This document shows positions 28,163 to 40,433 of a stretch of 64,000 bases of DNA, in pieces. Positions within the stretch are counted from its first letter, which is position 1, and each line of letters begins with the position of its first letter. The translations under genes and the position numbers were made by a program. The DNA is taken from assembly GCF_900157305.1 (NCBI RefSeq), contig NZ_LS974202.1:1922001-1986000 (forward strand). Reading direction: 5' to 3'. Source of the DNA: Mesotoga infera (GTDB lineage Bacteria; Thermotogota; Thermotogae; Petrotogales; Kosmotogaceae). The notes below the pieces were generated by a model that was not told the DNA's origin, did not search any database, and was given only the letters and a program-made list of their open reading frames with translations.

Positions 28163-31100
28163 TCACTTGCATATTCCGACATACTGTATGGAACTTCCCG
28201 AATTACCCGGATCCGTAAAACTCGGGTTTATTGTCTTGAATATTGCGCTTCCGCCCCTCAGATTCTTCGCACCGCCGGTGTAGTATGAGACCGTTATGCC
28301 GTCGAAACTGCTATCGCCTCTGAAACCATACAATCCCGTCGGTTTCTTGAGGAGAAGCGCGATCCTAAACGCTGTCATGAGATCTCCAAATCCGACATTG
28401 ACCCCTCTCTTTGCCAGCGTCGCCGTCACTGCCCTCTGATCATTACAACTATCCAGAAGAATATCTCTGAATATAGCGGGATCTCCTCCACCCTGTGTTC
28501 TGACATACTGCAAGAAAAGGTATGAGAGCGAGTAATTAGCAAGCACATCGCCGTTGTCATTCCAGTAAAGCAGAGACTGTCCGTTCTTTATGCTGGTGGC
28601 GTAATTGTAGTAGCTGATCCTGCTTGTCAGAGTCCCCTTGTAGATATGTTCGGCAGACATCGACAAACCTTCATTTAACCACTTCGGCATTGAACTACCC
28701 TTCTCCACAAAGTAGTTTCTGTTAAAGTTGACCATGTGCTGGAACTCGTGAACCAGAGTGCTGTAAGCTCTTGAAACATCTACCGGGTTCGATGCCGGGT
28801 AGCGCATCGTCGGATAGGTGTCTATATAGAAGATCTCCATCTTGTTTGAAGTACTGGTATTGAAGAGATCTCCAGAGCTGAAATAACCGCCCACATAAGC
28901 TCCAGTGTTGTCGAAATCGTCCTGAATATCGAAACAGAGGATCGCAACTCTTCCGTCTCCGTTTACATCTGATGGAGTGTAGAAGTATTCAGTAGCCAGA
29001 GGATAGATGACGTTATCGAACTCCTGACCAAGCTGCGTCGCCTTGGAAACAGTTATTTCCGAAGGATTCTCGACCCATATTTCGCAGGTCTCTCCAATAT
29101 ACTGAAGAGTCGCGGTTATCTGGTAATTCAAATTCGTTCTGAAATTGTTAACGTGGAAGGATCTCGTGCTGCCTACGGCTGCGAGTTCGAAGCCTGCCTC
29201 AACTAGATCCGGTCGCATCTTCATCGACAGATCGATGTCATCGGGGAGAGGTATCTCGGGATTTATAGCATACGCTTCAATCGGTAAATTTTTAGGAAGA
29301 ACATCCCCTGATGGAAGATAATCGGAACTGAGCGTTCCAGTGTACTCTGTAGTGTTTGCGCTCTCTGATTCATTGCTTACTAGAAGGACATTACCCGTGT
29401 AAACCGGCCCGTTCATGTCTATACCGTCTTCGGGTGGTATTTCGGCGGCTTCTGTTCTGAACTTCCAGACATCTCCCTGGGTAGTTGCTCCCTTAGCGTC
29501 TGTCGCTACTATCTTCCAGTAGTAATCCTTTCCATTCTGAAGATTGCCGGGGTTGTAAGATTTCGTTGTTATTCCCGAGGCCACCTTCGATGGATTCGAG
29601 CTCTCGCCGAAGTAGACATCGTATTTCAGAGAGTCTCCATCGGGGTCGCTGCAATTCCATGAGAGAGTTATTGAAGCAGCGATATCACTGCTGTTATTTG
29701 CGGGATTGGGGCTTGAAGGCTTCGCGGGTGGCTGATTGCTCTTTGTGGTGAAGTTCCAGAGATCTCCTGCCGTTTCGAGGCCCTTCGCATCTCTGGCGAC
29801 AACTTTCCAGTAATACTTCGTGCTTTCAGCGAGATTCGAAGCCGTGTAGCTTCTTGCCGTCTGTCCAGCCGAAACTCTCGCAGGGTTTGTCGTGGTACCG
29901 AAGTAGATGTCATATACAAGTGCGTCGCCGTCGGGATCAGAACAGTTCCATGAAAGTGTTATAGATGTTCCGACACCCGTAGCACCGCTCGATGGGGCTG
30001 GATTTGAAGGCTTCAGAGGAGCGTTATTGGAAGACTCAACAGTTATGCTGAAAGTATCGGTCGCTTCTCCGCCCCTGCCGTCGCTCGCTCTAACGGTCAC
30101 CGAATAGGTTCCTGCAGTGTTCGCATTGTAGCTGAACTGGTTTCCGCTTATCGTTCCAACTCCAGATACTTTGGAGAATACAATAGGATCACCATCTGAG
30201 TCTGAGACGAAGTTTCTCAGGTCCAGAACCAGATTCGTTCCAGTGCACACTGTCTGATCCGGGATCTCCAGAGTGGGGATCGCGTTGTATCTGGCGATAA
30301 CTTTCTTCGGACTGTCAAGATTTATCTGAAGCGGGTTATCATTTAGTGTCTCTCCGTTCACCGTCCAGTTGAGGAAGGAGTAGCCTTCGACCTGCGGAGC
30401 GGTGAGCGTTAGGCTGCTGCCCTTCTCGTACCAACCGCTTCCGGGAATAGAGACTACCGATGAGCTCACGCTTACGAGATACTCACTCTTCATCTGGGCT
30501 GTATAGGAGACAGAAGAAGAGAGAACGAGATTCCTGGTTGTCGAAGTGTTTCCGTCATTCCACTTCAAGAAAGTGTATCTGCTGTCTATACCGTCTATTC
30601 TATCCGATTCGTCTCTCTCCTGGAGAGCGGTTATTCCGAAACTGTGCGAAGAACCTTCCCAATCTTCTATCATTGCCGGTGCCTTCTTCTTTGCTCCATC
30701 TATAAGGATTTCGAGCCCGGCAGGATAGGTACTCACTGTCAGATTGTACTTTCCAAGTTGCCCGTAGATGGCTTCGACTTTCGAAGGTTCGCTTACCGTT
30801 ATACAGAGTTCTTGATTCTCGACTATCTCTCCGTTCACCGTCCAGTTGAGGAAGGAGTAGCCTTCGACCTGCGGAGCGGTGAGCGTTAGGCTGCTGCCCT
30901 TCTCGTACCAACCGCTTCCGGGAATAGAGACTACCGATGAGCTCACGCTTACGAGATACTCACTCTTCATCTGGGCTGTCAACGATACGTTTTCGGTTAC
31001 GGTTATCGTTCTCGCCTTCGCAGTGCTTTCGTCGCTCCACTTGGTGAAACTGTACCTTGTGTCTATTCCTTCTACATTACCGCTCTCGTCTCTCTCCTGT

Positions 31101-33247
31101 GGCGTTACTATCTCAAGTGATACCGTGTCTCCATGATTGACTACCACACTTGCCGGAGCTACCTTCTTGACTCCGTTCACTTTCACTTCCAGCCCCGAAG
31201 GCTCAGTGTTTACATTCACGCTGTATCCCTTGAGCGTATATACGGCGACTATCTTTTTTGGTGAATCATGAGTTATCTCTACGCTTCTTCCATCTATCCT
31301 GATCCCGTTTACTTCCCAGTGCGAAAAGTCGTATCCGATTGAATCAGGTGATACATAAGAAAAAAGAGAGTCCTTTACTTCCCAGCCCGCGCCATCTATG
31401 CTGGCAACTCCTTCGGGCAGTGTCGAGGTCTCGACTAGATATCGTGTCTCCGTCTGGACTGTGTAGCTCTTATCCGAATCGAGGAGCACCGTTCTTGGAT
31501 TTGAAGTATTGGAATCGTTCCATGACTTGAAAGTATATCTTGTGTCTACACCGGATACGAAAGAGCTTTCGTCTCTCTCCTGAGCTTTGAACTCTATCGT
31601 ATGGGAAGTTCCCTCTCTTGCCTGAATGCTCGAAGGTGATGTGTACTCAAGTGAGTCTATGATTATCTTCAAACCTTCGGGTTCGCTTCCAACCGAAAGA
31701 GTCCTGAAAGGTATTTCGCTGTAAACGGCTTCGATCTTTGTGGGTTTGTCGACCGTAATCACCAGGGGGTTGTCGTTTATCGCCTCTCCGTTGACGTTCC
31801 AGCCGTTGAAGGTGTAGTTCTCGACCTGCGGGGCGGTGAGTGTGAGGCTGCTGCCCTTCTCGTACCAACCGCTTCCGGGAATAGAGACTACCGATGAGCT
31901 CACGCTTACGAGATACTCACTCTTCATCTGGGCTGTCAACGATACGTTTTCGGTTACGGTTATCGTTCTCGCCTTCGCAGTGCTTTCGTCGCTCCACTTG
32001 GTGAAACTGTACCTTGTGTCTATTCCTTCTACATTACCGCTCTCGTCTCTCTCCTGTGGCGTTACTATCTCAAGTGATACCGTGTCTCCATGATTGACTA
32101 CCACACTTGCCGGAGCTACCTTCTTGACTCCGTTCACTTTCACTTCCAGCCCCGAAGGCTCAGTGTTTACATTCACGCTGTATCCCTTGAGCGTATATAC
32201 GGCGACTATCTTTTTTGGTGAATCATGAGTTATCTCTACGCTTCTTCCATCTATCCTGATCCCGTTTACTTCCCAGTGCGAAAAGTCGTATCCGATTGAA
32301 TCAGGTGATACATAAGAAAAAAGAGAGTCCTTTACTTCCCAGCCCGCGCCATCTATGCTGGCAACTCCTTCGGGCAGTGTCGAGGTCTCGACTAGATATC
32401 GTGTCTCCGTCTGGACTGTGTAGCTCTTATCCGAATCGAGGAGCACCGTTCTTGGATTTGAAGTATTGGAATCGTTCCATGACTTGAAAGTATATCTTGT
32501 GTCTACACCGGATACGAAAGAGCTTTCGTCTCTCTCCTGAGCTTTGAACTCTATCGTATGGGAAGTTCCCTCTCTTGCCTGAATGCTCGAAGGTGATGTG
32601 TACTCAAGTGAGTCTATGATTATCTTCAGTCCTTCGGGTTCGCTTCCAACCGAAAGAGTCCTGAAAGGTATTTCACTGTAAACGGCTTCGATCTTTGTGG
32701 GTTTGTCGACCGTAATCACCAGGGGGTTGTCGTTTATCGCCTCTCCGTTGACGTTCCAGCCGTTGAAGGTGTAGTTCTCGACCTGCGGGGCGGTGAGTGT
32801 GAGGCTGCTGCCCTTCTCGTACCAACCGCTTCCGGGAATCTCAATGAGTTTCTTAGGATCTGTGCTTACAGTAACCTTGAACTTTGTCAAAGTCTTTGCT
32901 TCAAGTTTCTTGTTGGAATCAACTGTTATTACTCTGGGATTGTCTTGTGATCCATCGCTCCAAACGTCAAAAACGTGAATCTCGTTAAGCTCTTCAGAAG
33001 GCTCTTCGTCCACGACTCTAACTACGACTCGCTCCTCAGGCTTCAAGCTAATGCTGAACGGAGTCAGACGAATATCCGAAGGCTCGAATTCAGTCTGCTC
33101 TATCTCATCCAGAAGAACGATCCCAATAGTATCGGGGTCGGAAATCACTTCCAGAGTGAAGAGTTTTACTCTCGGTACGCAACTGCTCATAAGTACTATG
33201 AAAACTACGAAAATTGATATCAGTATGCCTTTCATGTTTATCCTCAT
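28163..33247 (-). CDS. Giant lipoprotein with InlB-like repeats, FnIII domains and M30-type metallopeptidase
   Basis: A 1694-residue predicted lipoprotein starting at ATG 33247 after GGGGGA (lipobox MSSC). Residues about 100-990 are long InlB-like repeats containing GWYEKGSSLTLTAPQVE. One 319-residue block is duplicated almost exactly. Residues about 990-1070 are cadherin-like (ISGNQFSYNANTAGTYS), and about 1075-1265 are two fibronectin III domains. The C-terminal part carries HEFQH (His1500, Glu1501, His1504) and WLNEGLS (Glu1526), the zinc and catalytic residues of M30/hyicolysin-type metallopeptidases. It is likely an exported protease held on the cell surface. The start codon could also be the ATG four codons later. 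Confidence 0.88.
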   Translation of the reverse strand: MRINMKGILISIFVVFIVLMSSCVPRVKLFTLEVISDPDTIGIVLLDEIEQTEFEPSDIRLTPFSISLKPEERVVVRVVDEEPSEELNEIHVFDVWSDGSQDNPRVITVDSNKKLEAKTLTKFKVTVSTDPKKLIEIPGSGWYEKGSSLTLTAPQVENYTFNGWNVNGEAINDNPLVITVDKPTKIEAVYSEIPFRTLSVGSEPEGLKIIIDSLEYTSPSSIQAREGTSHTIEFKAQERDESSFVSGVDTRYTFKSWNDSNTSNPRTVLLDSDKSYTVQTETRYLVETSTLPEGVASIDGAGWEVKDSLFSYVSPDSIGYDFSHWEVNGIRIDGRSVEITHDSPKKIVAVYTLKGYSVNVNTEPSGLEVKVNGVKKVAPASVVVNHGDTVSLEIVTPQERDESGNVEGIDTRYSFTKWSDESTAKARTITVTENVSLTAQMKSEYLVSVSSSVVSIPGSGWYEKGSSLTLTAPQVENYTFNGWNVNGEAINDNPLVITVDKPTKIEAVYSEIPFRTLSVGSEPEGLKIIIDSLEYTSPSSIQAREGTSHTIEFKAQERDESSFVSGVDTRYTFKSWNDSNTSNPRTVLLDSDKSYTVQTETRYLVETSTLPEGVASIDGAGWEVKDSLFSYVSPDSIGYDFSHWEVNGIRIDGRSVEITHDSPKKIVAVYTLKGYSVNVNTEPSGLEVKVNGVKKVAPASVVVNHGDTVSLEIVTPQERDESGNVEGIDTRYSFTKWSDESTAKARTITVTENVSLTAQMKSEYLVSVSSSVVSIPGSGWYEKGSSLTLTAPQVEGYSFLNWTVNGEIVENQELCITVSEPSKVEAIYGQLGKYNLTVSTYPAGLEILIDGAKKKAPAMIEDWEGSSHSFGITALQERDESDRIDGIDSRYTFLKWNDGNTSTTRNLVLSSSVSYTAQMKSEYLVSVSSSVVSIPGSGWYEKGSSLTLTAPQVEGYSFLNWTVNGETLNDNPLQINLDSPKKVIARYNAIPTLEIPDQTVCTGTNLVLDLRNFVSDSDGDPIVFSKVSGVGTISGNQFSYNANTAGTYSVTVRASDGRGGEATDTFSITVESSNNAPLKPSNPAPSSGATGVGTSITLSWNCSDPDGDALVYDIYFGTTTNPARVSAGQTARSYTASNLAESTKYYWKVVARDAKGLETAGDLWNFTTKSNQPPAKPSSPNPANNSSDIAASITLSWNCSDPDGDSLKYDVYFGESSNPSKVASGITTKSYNPGNLQNGKDYYWKIVATDAKGATTQGDVWKFRTEAAEIPPEDGIDMNGPVYTGNVLLVSNESESANTTEYTGTLSSDYLPSGDVLPKNLPIEAYAINPEIPLPDDIDLSMKMRPDLVEAGFELAAVGSTRSFHVNNFRTNLNYQITATLQYIGETCEIWVENPSEITVSKATQLGQEFDNVIYPLATEYFYTPSDVNGDGRVAILCFDIQDDFDNTGAYVGGYFSSGDLFNTSTSNKMEIFYIDTYPTMRYPASNPVDVSRAYSTLVHEFQHMVNFNRNYFVEKGSSMPKWLNEGLSMSAEHIYKGTLTSRISYYNYATSIKNGQSLLYWNDNGDVLANYSLSYLFLQYVRTQGGGDPAIFRDILLDSCNDQRAVTATLAKRGVNVGFGDLMTAFRIALLLKKPTGLYGFRGDSSFDGITVSYYTGGAKNLRGGSAIFKTINPSFTDPGNSGSSIQYVGICK
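30888..32801 (-). repeat. Two tandem 957-bp coding repeats
   Basis: Units at 30888-31844 and 31845-32801 are nearly identical (offset 957, 319 codons). A partial copy continues to about 32838, and the segment around 30408-30500 is another partial copy. All lie in frame in the metallopeptidase gene. Confidence 0.92.
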
Positions 33248-33734: not shown

Positions 33735-34196
33735 CTATTTCTTCAGGGTTCCCTTCCATTCACCGATCTCTCTTGCGAGGCTATCGAGGTAGATTTTCCC
33801 ATCGTTGACAAATGTTCCGGTCGCTGTGATGGTCACAATGCCCGTGAGGATGACATCTCTTAAATCCCCAACTACTGGCGGGTATCGTACCTGCATAGTT
33901 ACCGTGAGAAAATTATCGGGTTTGTCGGTTACCGTGCCTTCGACATCGACTTTTATCAGTTCGAGTCCGGGAGGCATCGTACTTCCCCAGCCCTTTATGG
34001 TATTTCCGTCCTGATAAGTAATCTTCATTGTGCCGGTACCCTTGATTGTGGTGTTGTCATGTTTCACTTCGCCTTCGAGTTGCCAGGTACCAAGAACGGC
34101 AGGAGCGTTTTTTGGGTCGAAGTGTCTCTTCCAGAAGCATCCTCCGAGTGTTAGTGTCAAGAGAACAACGAAAAGAACTATGATTCGAGTCTTCAT
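33735..34196 (-). CDS. Small lipoprotein sharing a C-terminal domain with its neighbour
   Basis: A 153-residue predicted lipoprotein. ATG 34196 is preferred over an upstream in-frame start because AGGAGGGA lies just before it and the signal sequence (MKTRIIVLFVVLLTLTLGGC) begins there. The mature part begins LGTWQLEGEVKH and ends REIGEWKGTLKK. The same frame elements (YLGTWNFTGTID and RKIGEWTAHK) bracket the last 135 residues of the upstream dockerin protein, so the two share a probable lipocalin-like beta domain. It is the last gene of a four-gene operon, 22 bases after the previous stop. Function unknown. Confidence 0.8.
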   Translation of the reverse strand: MKTRIIVLFVVLLTLTLGGCFWKRHFDPKNAPAVLGTWQLEGEVKHDNTTIKGTGTMKITYQDGNTIKGWGSTMPPGLELIKVDVEGTVTDKPDNFLTVTMQVRYPPVVGDLRDVILTGIVTITATGTFVNDGKIYLDSLAREIGEWKGTLKK

Positions 34197-34218
34197 CTTC
34201 TCCCTCCTGTTTTTCGTT

Positions 34219-35286
34219 TTATTTGTGGGCCGTCCATTCACCTATTTTTCTTACCGGATTGATAAGGAATATGCCGTAGCCTTCACCTGTACCTGATGAT
34301 TCGGGGAAGATAGCGTTGCCTTCTACACGGAGTTTACCTTTCATCAGTATATCGTACTTAGTACCATTTACGGGATTTGCCATAGACCCGGTGATTGTCA
34401 TCTCAGTGGAGATAAACACGATATCCACCGAATCAATCTCAATACTGAATTCTTCGAATTTGACGTTCCCGTCTTCATCTGTGTAGGTTGAGCTGGCGGT
34501 GATCTCTACCGGACCGGACATCTCCCAGTTCTGCTGGTTAATTTCTAGCGTTCCTGTTCCTGTCGCCTTAACATATCCATATGTCGAGCTTTCATAGTCT
34601 ATGGTTCCCGTGAAATTCCAGGTCCCGAGATAAGGATTTGCGAAGCCGTAGTTGTTGGCGAAGACCGCAAAATCCGCAAGGGTTATCGATCCGTCAGGAG
34701 CTCCGGGAACTGAAAAGATTTTCTGCCAGATTCCCGAGTACTGTTTCTCAGATGCACCAACATCGAATTTCTCATCGTACTCTTGCGAACCTTCCGAGAA
34801 ACCGTACGCGGGAGCGAATGAAGCAAAATCGGACAGTGTTATGTAGCCGTCTCCGTTATAATCGCCGATCAGTTCTGGATCCACGCTGTTCTGCTTCCAG
34901 TAAGAGTTGGAGATACGATTCAAAACGATTGTGTCACACTTCGAGATAGCCATGCCGGCCGCGTGTTCCGAAGAGATCAGAAGTACTGGCCTGGAGAAAT
35001 CAACATTCCTGAAGCCGGAAATGGCTACGGTCAGATCCGAATGGTTGCTGCGTGTTATTATCAAGACTCCCTGAAGAGGAGATAGATCTTCAATTTTGAG
35101 ACCTTCCCCAACCAGAGTTATCTCTATTGCATCTATTCCTTCTCTTACATAAAGCTCGGCTCCGTCTGGAAGTCTCTGGAGTATATACCGGCCGCTTTGA
35201 TCGAACCTCGGAAAGTGTCCGACACATGAAGCCATAAGCATTGTGACAACAATAGATATAAACACGATGTATGTCATTCTTTTCAT
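34219..35286 (-). CDS. Lipoprotein with dockerin-like Ca-binding repeats
   Basis: A 355-residue predicted lipoprotein (lipobox MASC) with ATG 35286 after AGGGGGGTC. Residues about 30-130 are a beta-rich region ending in LLISSE that might be a divergent cohesin-like domain. Residues about 140-222 hold two dockerin type I repeats. The first, GDYNGDGYITLSDF, has all acidic and Asn residues of the calcium loop; the second, GAPDGSITLADF, lacks the first two ligands. The rest shares a domain with the downstream small lipoprotein. It lies between cohesin-like genes in one operon (11 bases after the previous stop). Dockerins bind cohesins, so its partners may be the operon's own products. Confidence 0.83.
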   Translation of the reverse strand: MKRMTYIVFISIVVTMLMASCVGHFPRFDQSGRYILQRLPDGAELYVREGIDAIEITLVGEGLKIEDLSPLQGVLIITRSNHSDLTVAISGFRNVDFSRPVLLISSEHAAGMAISKCDTIVLNRISNSYWKQNSVDPELIGDYNGDGYITLSDFASFAPAYGFSEGSQEYDEKFDVGASEKQYSGIWQKIFSVPGAPDGSITLADFAVFANNYGFANPYLGTWNFTGTIDYESSTYGYVKATGTGTLEINQQNWEMSGPVEITASSTYTDEDGNVKFEEFSIEIDSVDIVFISTEMTITGSMANPVNGTKYDILMKGKLRVEGNAIFPESSGTGEGYGIFLINPVRKIGEWTAHK

Positions 35287-35297
35287 CTCAGACCCCC

Positions 35298-36080
35298 CTA
35301 CTGGATTGTGATTATCCCGGTATCAGACAGATCGAGTCCACTGATCTCGGGAATCACACCGGTACTGAATTTAACATTTCCTTCGCTAACATATTCCGAG
35401 AAGAGTATCTCCGTATTGCCGGCTTTGTCGAGTACATTGACAAATACTCTCAGCAGCTCCGTATTCTGAACATCGAGATCTTTCAGTCCGGCCACGGCCA
35501 CGTGAATAACACTTTCGGAAGGCTGCTTGATTATCATAAGTCCACCGACAAGGGACTGGACTATACCGGGACATGTAAGATACTCCGTATCGAACTCCAG
35601 TACAACTTCAAAGGCATTTATCTCACCGAGGTTATTGGCTTTCACAACAAAGCTTCCAAGACTGTTCCTGTTCAGAGTGGTATCGATTATTTCGAAGGAG
35701 GGCCCTGCAACAACTATGGTGGAAGCCGCGCTCTTCACAGGGTCGCCGGCCTTTCCCTTTATATCTACCGGTATAACTTCGAAATACATGAATTTACCGA
35801 CATCTTGCGAAGTGAGCAAATACTCGTGTTTAGTGGCTGAGGGAATCGACTCAAGACCAGTGCCGTCGGCTTTGTCTGAACGATACCATTTGTACTCGGA
35901 TGCTCCTTCAGGCTCCTGCTCGGGATCCAGAAAAGTGTATTCTCCCTTTACTTTCTGCCCTGTAACTGTATCTCCCGTGATCCTTACATCTGAAGCACTG
36001 GGCTTTTTGTTTATCGGTGGACAGGCCGTAAGTGCAATCAGCAAGATCAACATAACGGTGATATAGGCTAATTTTCTCAA
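35298..36080 (-). CDS. Lipoprotein with Ig-like and cohesin-like domains
   Basis: A 260-residue predicted lipoprotein (lipobox LTAC). The start is TTG 36080, preceded by GGGGTGAT; no ATG fits the signal sequence. Residues about 28-125 are an Ig-like domain with the EYKWYRSD and DVGKFMYFEVIP strands. Residues about 128-260 look like a cohesin: INAFEVVLEFDTEYL, a central HVAVAGL strand and the closing SGLDLSDTGIITI. Cohesins bind dockerins, and the next gene encodes one. It starts 14 bases after the stop of the larger cohesin-like gene. The cohesin call rests on pattern recognition and needs a profile search. Confidence 0.78.
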   Translation of the reverse strand: MRKLAYITVMLILLIALTACPPINKKPSASDVRITGDTVTGQKVKGEYTFLDPEQEPEGASEYKWYRSDKADGTGLESIPSATKHEYLLTSQDVGKFMYFEVIPVDIKGKAGDPVKSAASTIVVAGPSFEIIDTTLNRNSLGSFVVKANNLGEINAFEVVLEFDTEYLTCPGIVQSLVGGLMIIKQPSESVIHVAVAGLKDLDVQNTELLRVFVNVLDKAGNTEILFSEYVSEGNVKFSTGVIPEISGLDLSDTGIITIQ

Positions 36081-36094
36081 TCAGATCACCCCAT

Positions 36095-39000
36095 TCAGTT
36101 TATGGTTATCGTGCCTGGAATCAGCGTAATATTCGGACTCCTTATTTCCTGAGGCGGCTGGCTGTCATCGGCTACCGCAGTTTCTACTGGAGAATCATTA
36201 TATACATAGCTAGTAAAACCGATGGTTGTACTTCCAGATGAGATCTCGGATACTACAATCGTTGCTATCTTGGTTCTTCCCGCGAGGTTCACGGGTTGAC
36301 CTCCTGCAATGAAATGGATTATTCCGTCGGTGTTTCTTATCATGTTCGCAAGCGGCCATCCAAGGCCGGCATCGTTAGACATGGCTAACACAGACAGCTT
36401 TGTTGTATCAAAGCTCAAAACGTATTCAATCGCTGTGACACCAAATTCGAAGTCTTCGGCGTATATGTCTATCTGCCCAAAACCATCCATCGTGGTGTTG
36501 TTTATCTGGATCGTTCCTTTACTTATAGTAGTGAAGTTCGCAACTAGCGTTCTGTTCTTTGTAGCCGTAAATGAATAACTGGCGTTAGTACTTACCTGTG
36601 CTCCATTCTCTGTCCAGTTGACGAACCTGTATCCCTCTTTGGGGGTGGCTGAAAGATTGACAGTATCTCCATGGGTGTAGACCCCTCCACCGGCAGCAGT
36701 TCCTCCGGCTGCAGGATTGGCCGAAACGGCTATTGTATAGGTCTTCTTTGTCAGGATAATATCTACCGTCTTGTCTCCATCGACATTGACGTTATCAGTC
36801 ACGTTGTTGTATCCCGTCTTGCTTATCGTGTATGATCTTGTTCCTGACTGAACGTTTGTGAAGACGGCCTTTCCCTGCGCGTCGGTGCTCTTGTTCTCAC
36901 CGTTGAAGGCGACGTTAGCGCCCTGAACTTTTCCCTGGTTATCGCTTACATTGAAAGTTACCGTATATACTCTGACGAAATCGGCAGTCACCGTTTTGTT
37001 TCCGTTCATAGTCAGATTGGCCGGGTTTGCAGAGCCGCTCAAATCTCCGCTCCAGGTGTCGAAAGCCCAGCCGGCAGAAGGATTGGCTGTGAGCTGAACG
37101 ACTTCACCATGAGTATATGTTGCTTTGTCTGGATTCTTCGTGACAGTCCCCTGACCAATTACGTTTGTCGTTAGGCTATAGGTCTTGAGTTTGAATGTGA
37201 CGGAGATAGTATGACTGGCAGTCACGTTGTTGAATGTGTAGCTGGATACGGCTCCAATGGAAACTCCGTCTACCTTCACATCTTCTATGTCATATCCGGT
37301 GTCCGGAGTTATCGTGAATGACTGATTAGAGCCGTGGGTAACGTTCACACTCCCCGCGGGATTTATGCTTCCTCCCGTGCCCGCCGTTGCGGTGATCGTG
37401 TAGGTCTTAAGTCTGAAGTTGGCCACGAGTGTCCTGTTCGCGGTCGCCGTGAACGAGTAAGCGGCGTTCGTGCTCACCTGCACCCCATTCTCTGTCCAGT
37501 TGACAAATTCATAGCCTTCGTTTGCAGCGGCCACAAGGTTTACAGTATCTCCGTGAGTGTAGTTTCCTCCGCCGCTTACACTTCCTCCGGCAGGAGGATT
37601 TGCCGAAACGACTATTGTATAACTCTTAAGTTGGAATGTAGCGTGAATGGTGTGGTTAGTCGTGACGTTTGTGAAGTTGTATGTGGAAACGGCCCCAATA
37701 GAGACTCCATCTACCTTTACGTCTTCTATCTCGTATCCGGTATTCGGGGTTATGTTGAACAATCTGTTCGATCCATGTTCTACCTGCACACTCCCCGCGG
37801 GATTTATATTGCCTCCCGCGCCCGCCGTCGCGGTGATCGTGTAGGTCTTCTTTGTGAGTATCACGTTTACTGTCTCATCGCCGTCGACATTGACGTTGCC
37901 AGTCGCGTTGTTGTATCCTGTCTTGCTCACTGTATATGCTCTGTTACCAGCCAGAACTCCTGTAAACACTGCCTTCCCCTGCACGTCTGTGGCCTTTGTC
38001 TCTCCGTAGAATGTAACACTCGCGCCCTGAACTGCTCCCTGATTATCGCTCACGTTGAAGGTCACTGTATATGTTGGAGGGGGCAGAAGTGAGAAGCTGG
38101 CGTGGATCGTGTGATCAGCAGCGACTCCGGTGAAAGTATACGATGTTCTCGGTCCAACAGACTCCCCATCGACCAGTACGTCTTCAACGTTGTAGCCCTC
38201 ACCGGGAGTTATGGCAAACTCCTGATCATCTCCATGATTTACGGAGACATCGCCCGAAGGATTTATACTACCTCCAGCTCCCGCCGTCGCGGTAATTGTG
38301 TAGGTCTTAAGTCTGAAGTTGGCCACGAGCGTTCTGTTCGCAGTCGCCATGAACGAGTAAGCGGCGTTCGTGCTCACCTGCACCCCATTCTCTGTCCAGT
38401 TGACAAATTCATAGCCTTCGTTTGCAGCGGCCACAAGGTCCACAGTGTCTCCGTGGTCGTAGCTCCCGGCTCCAGTTATTGTTCCACCGGCCGGAGGATT
38501 AGCCGATGCGGCTATCGTGTACTTCTTTATTGTGAAGGTCGCTGTTACTGTCTTATTTGAATCCATTGCTATGTTTGCCGGATTTGCAGTACCACTAAGG
38601 TCTCCGCTCCAGCCAACGAAGCTCCAGCCCTCATCAGGGGTAGCGGTAAGCTCTACTTCCTCTCCATGATCATACGTAGGTTTGCTCGGGTTCTTCGTTA
38701 CAGTTCCCTGGCCTACAGTGTTTGTCGTAAGTGTATAGGTCTTGAGCCTGAAAGCCGCGTGAATTGTATGATCCGATGTGACTTTGGTGTAAGTGTAATT
38801 GTCAACCGGTCCAATTGTGACTCCGTCAGAAATTACATCTTCTATAGTGTAACTATCGTCTGGAAGTATGCTGAAAGTGATACTGTCTCCATAACTGACT
38901 TCCACTTCTCCGGAAGGGCCTATGCTCCCACCCGCTCCGGCGGTAGCGGCGATGGTGTATGTCTTCTTCGTGAGGGTGATATCGACGTTCTCGTCACCAT

Positions 39001-39523
39001 CGACGTTGATGTTTCCGCTGGCGTTGTTGTAACCCTCTTTGCTCACAGTATATGCTTTACTGCCCGCGAGAACCTCGGTGAAGACGGCCTTCCCCTGGGC
39101 GTCGGTGCTCTTGTTCTCTCCGTTGAAGGCGACGTTGGCTCCCTGTACGGCTCCCTGGTTATCGCTCACGCTGAAAGTTACCGTGTATGTCGATGGTGCG
39201 AGCACTGTGACGCTAACGGTTTTGGTGACAGTCTTGTATTTGTCTTTGGAAGCTTCTATCTCGATCTCCGTCTCACCGGCGGAGATTCCTGTAACCGTTC
39301 CGGAATCGGAGACGGTGGCAATCGATGTATTTTTCGACGTGAATTTCAACGTTGTATCGATGGGCTTCACGGTTAACTGGATCGTCTTGGACTCACCTAT
39401 GGATAGGGAGATATTTTTCGTTACGATATCCAGCTTGATCACCCTAAAAAGGAAACAACCTTGCGTCGTTATGATGGCGAGAAAAACCAGGCTCAGTAGC
39501 AAAACAAATAAGATCTTCTTCAC
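36095..39523 (-). CDS. Large lipoprotein: Big2, InlB-type repeats and C-terminal cohesin-like domain
   Basis: A 1142-residue predicted lipoprotein (lipobox TTQGC) with GTG start at 39523 after AAGGAG. Domains: Big2-like (residues about 28-108), carboxypeptidase-regulatory-like (about 110-190), then many InlB-type repeats with two more regulatory-like domains, and a C-terminal cohesin-like domain (about 998-1142) with YAEDFEFGVTAIEYVLSFD and the closing NITLIPGTITIN. The segment 36533-37465 is identical to part of the permuted-peptidase gene. First gene of the four-gene cohesin/dockerin operon. It probably displays its cohesin-like domain far from the membrane on a long repeat stalk; this is inference. 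Confidence 0.83.
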   Translation of the reverse strand: MKKILFVLLLSLVFLAIITTQGCFLFRVIKLDIVTKNISLSIGESKTIQLTVKPIDTTLKFTSKNTSIATVSDSGTVTGISAGETEIEIEASKDKYKTVTKTVSVTVLAPSTYTVTFSVSDNQGAVQGANVAFNGENKSTDAQGKAVFTEVLAGSKAYTVSKEGYNNASGNINVDGDENVDITLTKKTYTIAATAGAGGSIGPSGEVEVSYGDSITFSILPDDSYTIEDVISDGVTIGPVDNYTYTKVTSDHTIHAAFRLKTYTLTTNTVGQGTVTKNPSKPTYDHGEEVELTATPDEGWSFVGWSGDLSGTANPANIAMDSNKTVTATFTIKKYTIAASANPPAGGTITGAGSYDHGDTVDLVAAANEGYEFVNWTENGVQVSTNAAYSFMATANRTLVANFRLKTYTITATAGAGGSINPSGDVSVNHGDDQEFAITPGEGYNVEDVLVDGESVGPRTSYTFTGVAADHTIHASFSLLPPPTYTVTFNVSDNQGAVQGASVTFYGETKATDVQGKAVFTGVLAGNRAYTVSKTGYNNATGNVNVDGDETVNVILTKKTYTITATAGAGGNINPAGSVQVEHGSNRLFNITPNTGYEIEDVKVDGVSIGAVSTYNFTNVTTNHTIHATFQLKSYTIVVSANPPAGGSVSGGGNYTHGDTVNLVAAANEGYEFVNWTENGVQVSTNAAYSFTATANRTLVANFRLKTYTITATAGTGGSINPAGSVNVTHGSNQSFTITPDTGYDIEDVKVDGVSIGAVSSYTFNNVTASHTISVTFKLKTYSLTTNVIGQGTVTKNPDKATYTHGEVVQLTANPSAGWAFDTWSGDLSGSANPANLTMNGNKTVTADFVRVYTVTFNVSDNQGKVQGANVAFNGENKSTDAQGKAVFTNVQSGTRSYTISKTGYNNVTDNVNVDGDKTVDIILTKKTYTIAVSANPAAGGTAAGGGVYTHGDTVNLSATPKEGYRFVNWTENGAQVSTNASYSFTATKNRTLVANFTTISKGTIQINNTTMDGFGQIDIYAEDFEFGVTAIEYVLSFDTTKLSVLAMSNDAGLGWPLANMIRNTDGIIHFIAGGQPVNLAGRTKIATIVVSEISSGSTTIGFTSYVYNDSPVETAVADDSQPPQEIRSPNITLIPGTITIN
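36533..37465 (-). repeat. 933-bp direct repeat, copy 2
   Basis: Identical to 18092-19024 as read by eye. The upstream edge falls exactly where the repeat region ends and the gene-specific C-terminal domain begins. Confidence 0.9.
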
Positions 39524-39638: not shown

Positions 39639-40433
39639 TCAGAAAGCAGTCGATTTTGTGATTTCAGCCGTGCTTATTGCGTCCTTAATCATTTCAACGT
39701 GAACTCCCCAACCAGCGTTCAGAAACTGGTTTTCCTCTACTTCTCTACCCTCTTTTCTTGCCTTCGGACTGAATCCTAGTGGCAGATGAACGGTACGACT
39801 CTGAACGGCCCAGACCCGACCTGTTACATCCAGTATAGGACCGCCACTTTGTCCAAGGAGTCCGGGAGATGAAGTCTCTATGAACTTGGCAATTTTATTT
39901 GCTCCTTTAAAGGCCAGCGCGGATACTGACCTCGTATATATACCCTCAATTGGATAGAGAGATGGAAGGCTCTTCGAGTCCATAAGAAAACGTGACTGCT
40001 TGTCGTCGAAAGTCGCTTTGATTCTGGAGAATGGATAGCCAACACGACAGAGACTGGTACCTACTCTCATATCTTCGACCTTGACGAATTCCGGATACTC
40101 CTTTACCTCTGAGGCTTCGAATGGCTCAAGTCTTCCGACAACAAGATCGTATTCCGGGAACGGTCTTATATCCTTGAGAGTTATCCCATCTTTCCCCCAC
40201 CAGAATGAGTGGTTAGTTATTCTTTTAGCTTCGGGAGTTTCGTTTGGATTTGCCTGCTGTTTTTTGAAGAGAAAGTAGGACTGCCACAGATGGGCAACTG
40301 TAATCATCCAGCCTCTACTGTTCAAAATAACGAACGTTCCACAGGTTGCGCTGACTTTTCCATCGCCTCTTCGGTTCAGTACTACTACTGGACGTGTGAA
40401 GAAACTGGCTGTTTCGTATGCTCTTGCAAACAT
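39639..40433 (-). CDS. Trypsin-like serine protease without signal peptide
   Basis: A 264-residue protein with a chymotrypsin/DegP-like layout. The likely triad is His48 (MITVAHLW), Asp96 ([10 protein letters not shown]) and Ser196 ([10 protein letters not shown]). The GQSGGP motif and downstream VWAVQSR strand are typical. The ATG at 40433 follows GGAGGTGAAAC. There is no signal sequence, membrane segment or PDZ domain, so it appears cytoplasmic, unlike DegP. An unusual insertion lies between His and Asp (residues about 55-90). It stands alone between the lipoprotein island and miaB, and its substrate cannot be guessed. Confidence 0.82.

Follow-up and report, generated by a model that had tools for sequence, protein, structure and literature searches.

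Whether an operon of four lipoprotein genes in Mesotoga infera encodes a cohesin-dockerin assembly outside the cellulosome is the question raised by a 64,000-nucleotide stretch of its genome (contig NZ_LS974202.1, positions 1,922,001 to 1,986,000; here termed the window), in which an earlier note, made from the sequence alone, had recognised cohesin-like and dockerin-like modules. The genome is a single contig of 2.97 Mb, and the operon comprises four minus-strand genes running from 39523 to 33735 in window coordinates, numbered here 1 to 4 along the operon (Table 1). The operon is probably a minimal non-cellulosomal cohesin-dockerin system, all members of which are lipoproteins, with the gene 3 protein clipped to a carrier by predicted binding. 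The parts of this explanation established computationally are the identity of the modules, the lipoboxes, the conservation of the operon, and the co-occurrence of the modules with their physical linkage.

Genes 1 and 2 both end in a cohesin-like module, as the earlier note had claimed, with family profiles and a structure model of gene 2 in agreement. A cohesin family profile was built from 15 aligned modules from the genus and order, genes 1 and 2 included, and when this was compared with the PDB 14 of the 16 chains listed were cohesins (best E 2.7e-4) with type II cohesins leading. The Pfam family Cohesin (PF00963) is matched by 10 of the 15 family members (best 5e-8), and a homologous stalk protein scores above its curated cut-off (26.9 versus 24.1 bits). 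The AlphaFold model of gene 2, built from five sequences with a predicted local distance difference test score (pLDDT) of 72, found the cohesin 2vo8 in Foldseek at E 5.2e-6, and model residues 106-241 could be aligned with solved cohesins using VIA-align with Z up to 14.5 and 2.5 Å over 125 residues. Rows 1-35 of the structural-alignment list were all cohesins, including the non-cellulosomal cohesin 2xdh of Archaeoglobus fulgidus (Z 14.3) and 2vo8 (Z 14.1), while a phmmer search of gene 2 against the PDB gave nothing useful. Searches of this kind had been named in advance as able to place the domains outside the cohesin fold, and both the profile and the structural comparison place them within it. 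A cohesin fold (a jelly-roll beta-sandwich) for the C-terminal module of gene 2 is thus established to the standard of a prediction, and the assignment of the gene 1 C-terminal module as a predicted cohesin is supported by its homology to the same family profile. In the search of the genome gene 1 returned E 7.6e-38, a self-match by construction with gene 1 being one of the 15 profile rows. Upstream of its cohesin, gene 1 consists of a stalk in which Pfam identifies nine Flg_new_2 (InlB-type) stretches, three PEGA/CarboxypepD_reg stretches and one Big_2, and the description of an InlB-repeat stalk carrying one cohesin-like domain is borne out by these repeats together with a single C-terminal profile match. 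The Ig domain of gene 2 was aligned in its model with the Ig domain of SCAB1 (4dix) at Z 10.5.

The partner module lies in gene 3, which by sequence comparison carries a divergent dockerin that is kin to known dockerins. A nine-member dockerin profile compared with the PDB gave the dockerin 2y3n_B as its best match (E 1.8e-5), followed by type II X-module dockerin chains, among several dockerins listed. The first calcium loop, running from D142 to D153 (DYNGDGYITLSD), has every EF-hand ligand position filled, with D142, G145, D146, G147 and D153 invariant across six full-length relatives, such that the full calcium loop previously noted is intact and is a candidate calcium-binding site. The further claim of dockerin repeats holds for this first loop only, as the second is not a plain repeat. 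It retains D175, D198, I201, D205 and F206, the first four being invariant among relatives, but approximately 19 extra residues with a conserved G-x-W-x-x-I-x-S motif separate D175 from D198 (loop positions 1 and 5), an insertion which is also present in the nine-row alignment. The near-twofold symmetry of classical cellulosomal dockerins permits two binding orientations. This symmetry is broken by the insertion and a single binding orientation is therefore proposed, to which the split loop 2 may restrict the dockerin. Two further searches concerned gene 3. The N-terminal module (N-module) was considered as a degenerate cohesin, a candidate that was unsupported (probability 5.5%, no PDB match), and a scan of viral contigs for gene 3 found none.

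The non-cellulosomal character of the operon was examined across the genome with both family profiles, which detected two cohesins and one clear dockerin, all of them inside the operon. The next dockerin-profile match had an E of 0.09, which answers the call for a search for other dockerin genes with gene 3 as the only clear one. In cellulose-digesting bacteria these two modules serve to join enzymes into complexes. Pfam found no glycosidase or carbohydrate-binding domain in the four operon proteins, in agreement with the reported absence of a cellulase or carbohydrate-binding module. The genome thus presents two single-cohesin proteins and one clear dockerin, with no multi-cohesin scaffoldin and no dockerin-bearing glycosidase of the kind that define a cellulosome. 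Since the sole clear dockerin sits on a protein lacking a glycosidase or carbohydrate-binding domain by Pfam, the non-cellulosomal reading already favoured by the earlier note is supported.

The arrangement is conserved among relatives. In three genomes of the same genus (G001, G004 and G009) the four-gene order is kept, preceded by a trypsin-like gene and followed by an InlB-repeat peptidase, gene 1 of G001 being read as two open reading frames (ORFs). Genes 1 to 3 are present in order in G003, where gene 1 is cut by the contig end, and in G014 a contig end holds genes 2 and 3, preceded by a fragment of another cohesin. Another genus (g6; e.g., G030, G023, G035 and G032) and G011 have a stalk lipoprotein with a cohesin at its end and, after it, a lipoprotein with the order N-module, cohesin, dockerin and payload. 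The same order is seen in G026 with the in-chain cohesin below detection. The payloads vary, with a beta-rich domain in gene 3 and LVIVD repeats in G030. Across 103 genomes of the class, a cohesin was found in 23, a dockerin in 35 and both in 21 (Fisher p 1e-10, phylogeny ignored), and for 47 of the 51 cohesins a same-strand dockerin is no more than 5 kb away, downstream or fused in nearly all cases. Four genomes of the operon's own genus (G005–G008) are missing both cohesin and dockerin.

These distributions bear on whether the two modules meet at all. The dockerin could instead pack on the N-module of its own protein as a calcium-dependent stabiliser, and would then have no contact with the cohesin-fold domains in genes 1 and 2, which would be general beta-sandwiches for adhesion or spacing. 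In keeping with this the dockerin is internal in gene 3, between two domains and not terminal, the N-module always precedes the dockerin either directly or with a cohesin between, and the fused cohesin-dockerin chains of relatives could equally pair within one chain. However, within the genus separate genes encode the cohesins and yet stay beside the dockerin gene, both modules are jointly absent from the four genomes mentioned above, and the N-module is not detectably a cohesin (5.5%, no PDB match), such that packing within gene 3 is considered unlikely. With part of the linkage resulting from fusion in a single chain, it is the separate-gene cases in the genus that provide the independent evidence of linkage.

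A number of observations weigh against a cohesin-dockerin pair encoded by the operon. Genes 1 and 2 themselves have no match to PF00963 at E<=1, and the Pfam Dockerin_1 score of gene 3 is 13.3 bits for the whole protein and 16.8 bits for the excised module, against a cut-off of 22.9. With NCBIfam, too, the window's own sequences gave no decision on either module. The structure model of gene 3, obtained from a three-row alignment, has a pLDDT of 42 with the loop-following helices predicted at low confidence. Among the dockerin-matching genomes of the class 14 of 35 have no detectable cohesin, and the linkage statistic owes much to chains that fuse both modules, with the Fisher test blind to phylogeny. 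The weak Dockerin_1 score is attributed to the splitting of loop 2 by the insertion. The proposed check with the two Pfam models therefore gave a divided outcome, in which Cohesin was not matched by genes 1 and 2 and Dockerin_1 fell below its cut-off in gene 3, whereas the family profiles were positive for both modules. The Pfam results are what would be expected if the likeness were superficial, arising from a common beta-sandwich and a chance EF-hand-like loop, but this is strongly disfavoured by the family profiles, the fold matches and the genome-wide co-occurrence and is left with very little probability.

In the cohesin-dockerin system preferred here, the operon proteins would bind each other through these modules. 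The cohesins at the free ends of gene 1, a long stalk carrier, and gene 2, a short Ig-based carrier, would act as sockets and the single mid-protein dockerin of gene 3 as the plug, which would hold the C-terminal beta domain of gene 3 at the tip of either carrier. With one dockerin per gene 3 molecule, each molecule could occupy one carrier. A lipobox pattern of the PROSITE type is matched by all four operon proteins, with the cysteine at residue 23, 20, 21 and 20 in genes 1 to 4, respectively, and by 28 of 28 homologues checked. All four are thus predicted lipoproteins, consistent with the lipid anchoring originally suggested for all members. The membrane holding them is not readable from the lipobox, and their location would be the envelope surface or the periplasm. 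With lipoboxes in both partners and in the homologues, it may be asked whether the two are held by different layers, one lipoprotein by the inner membrane and the other by the outer toga, with the cohesin-dockerin bond tying the toga to the cell and the long repeat stalk of gene 1 spanning a wide periplasm. Such a tether is improbable, as the signal peptides of all four proteins are alike with no sequence feature sorting them to different membranes, and as G014 pairs a short carrier with the dockerin protein when a tether needs no short stalk. A broader proposal holds that Thermotogota join pairs of lipid-anchored proteins by a dedicated cohesin-dockerin bond, in which the split-loop dockerin has one orientation, and use it either as a link between cell and outer toga or in a layered coat on the surface. 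The pair, found both as separate genes and in head-to-tail fusions, could in this view form chains. This proposal is speculative and at present doubtful.

The layout of the operon is in keeping with the earlier description, with the coordinates of all four ORFs confirmed and intergenic gaps of 14, 11 and 22 nucleotides between genes 1 and 2, 2 and 3, and 3 and 4, respectively. The 22-nucleotide gap, and with it the spacings as previously given, holds provided that gene 4 starts from ATG 34196, which is preceded by AGGAGG and was preferred to the GTG given in the ORF list at 34241, further upstream. Promoter and terminator scans of the operon performed no better than on shuffled sequence, and a hairpin 3′ of gene 4 is unremarkable (z -1.2).

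Gene 4 has neither a cohesin nor a dockerin module, such that it is a member of the operon and not demonstrably part of the plug-and-socket arrangement. It is distantly similar to the C-terminal domain of gene 3 (blastp against a gene 3 homologue, E 6.7e-4), with homologues present in three operons of the same genus, and may correspond to that domain in free form or act as its partner. No Pfam family came near its cut-off with either the gene 3 C-terminal domain or gene 4, and one PDB match, to a large adhesin (7.5e-5), was not relied on.

Table 1. Genes and modules of the operon, in window coordinates.
Feature	Coordinates	Strand	Description and basis
Gene 1	36095..39523	-	1142-aa lipoprotein with repeat stalk and C-terminal cohesin; ORF, Pfam, lipobox
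Cohesin module of gene 1 (residues 1001-1142)	36098..36523	-	Family profile matching PDB cohesins
Gene 2	35298..36080	-	260-aa lipoprotein with AIR9-type Ig domain and cohesin; ORF, Pfam, lipobox
AIR9-type Ig domain of gene 2 (residues 30-116)	35733..35993	-	Pfam PF23197, E 1.8e-13
Predicted cohesin module of gene 2 (residues 125-260)	35301..35708	-	AlphaFold model compared with solved cohesins (Foldseek, VIA-align)
Gene 3	34219..35286	-	355-aa lipoprotein with N-terminal module, dockerin and C-terminal beta-rich domain; ORF, alignment with five relatives, lipobox
Dockerin module of gene 3	34633..34890	-	Dockerin family profile
EF-hand calcium loop 1 (residues 142-153, DYNGDGYITLSD)	34828..34863	-	Complete in the sequence
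Split calcium loop 2 (residues 175-205)	34672..34764	-	Invariant end residues, conserved insertion of ~19 residues
C-terminal beta-rich domain of gene 3 (presumed payload)	34222..34635	-	Distant similarity to gene 4
Gene 4	33735..34196	-	Small lipoprotein resembling the gene 3 C-terminal domain; ATG 34196, lipobox

The operon is flanked directly upstream by a trypsin-like (Trypsin_2) gene at 39639-40433 (-), found in the same place in G001, G004 and G009. The next gene downstream, at 28163-33247 (-), encodes a lipoprotein-like protein of 1694 aa in which InlB repeats and FN3 are accompanied by a weak match to peptidase MA, and is syntenic with the operon in the same three genomes. Direct repeats of 300 nucleotides lie within it at 30350, 30827 and 31784, spaced by 477 and 957 and matching the reference at 78-95%; being long and near-identical, they point to a recent internal duplication. 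In G003 an InlB-repeat lipoprotein carrying a papain-like domain (Peptidase_C1) occupies the downstream place (L022:3493-6597, +). An alignment row from the wrong strand of that locus (L022:3015-3515, -) was left out of the evidence. Related modules also occur elsewhere. G009 has a second, paralogous locus (L076:1228-11367, +) in which a cohesin-ending stalk is followed by two successive lipoproteins with N-module, cohesin, dockerin and payload. Genomes of family f10 encode proteins of ~900 aa with a dockerin-like match and no cohesin by this profile, as at L075:3826-6534 (+), where the match is C-terminal and a 510-aa lipoprotein-like protein lies just upstream. In Latescibacterota (loci L067-L071), proteins end in related dockerin-like repeats with no cohesin partner by profile in the stretches examined. 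An origin of the gene 2 cohesin by splitting of an ancestral cohesin-dockerin fusion was also considered and rejected, as the tree places it among those cohesins of the same genus that end stalks or stand alone, apart from the in-chain ones (midpoint root, not final).

Cohesins and dockerins outside the cellulosome were reportedly treated by Peer et al. in 2009. They constitute a known class (PMC9012536; PMC6030884). The operon resembles this class, represented by 2xdh of A. fulgidus and the glycosidase cohesins 2vo8, 2jh2 and 2w1n of C. perfringens, in its cohesin fold, in having one cohesin per protein and no cellulosome, and in the small number of modules, some genomes of the class likewise holding very few. 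It differs in that both partners are predicted lipoproteins in one operon, in the split second dockerin loop and in a stalk-plus-plug arrangement kept across Thermotogota. The clostridial cellulosome, with its scaffoldins, anchoring scaffoldins and type I and II pairs, shares the cohesin and dockerin modules and an envelope-attached socket (predicted here), whereas the operon is without a multi-cohesin scaffoldin or a dockerin-bearing glycosidase and the genome has one clear dockerin. In X module-dockerin dyads (CipA-type XDoc, 3kcp/2b59) a beta-rich domain likewise precedes the dockerin, and the profile ranks these chains right after 2y3n, but the gene 3 N-module has no detectable relationship to any solved chain and its dockerin is internal, not C-terminal. 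TMEM132 resembles gene 2 in that a single membrane-attached chain combines Ig-type with cohesin domains, but is described as an animal family with no detectable dockerin partner in vertebrates (PMC6030884). No literature linking Mesotoga with dockerins or describing this gene set was found in a search that lay outside most subscription journals, and papers naming Thermotogae or Petrotoga with both modules seem from title and abstract to be community or biomass-degradation studies. The predicted double lipid anchoring and the split loop mark the system as a variant of the known non-cellulosomal class.

The roles of cohesins and dockerins outside cellulosomes are largely open, partly since partners are hard to assign. 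With two sockets and one clear plug in a single operon genome-wide, three short protein fragments would suffice for a direct test of the pairing. Should they prove to bind, the toga-bearing Thermotogota would be shown to possess a device for assembling proteins, and new cohesin–dockerin pairs, possibly heat-stable, would become available.

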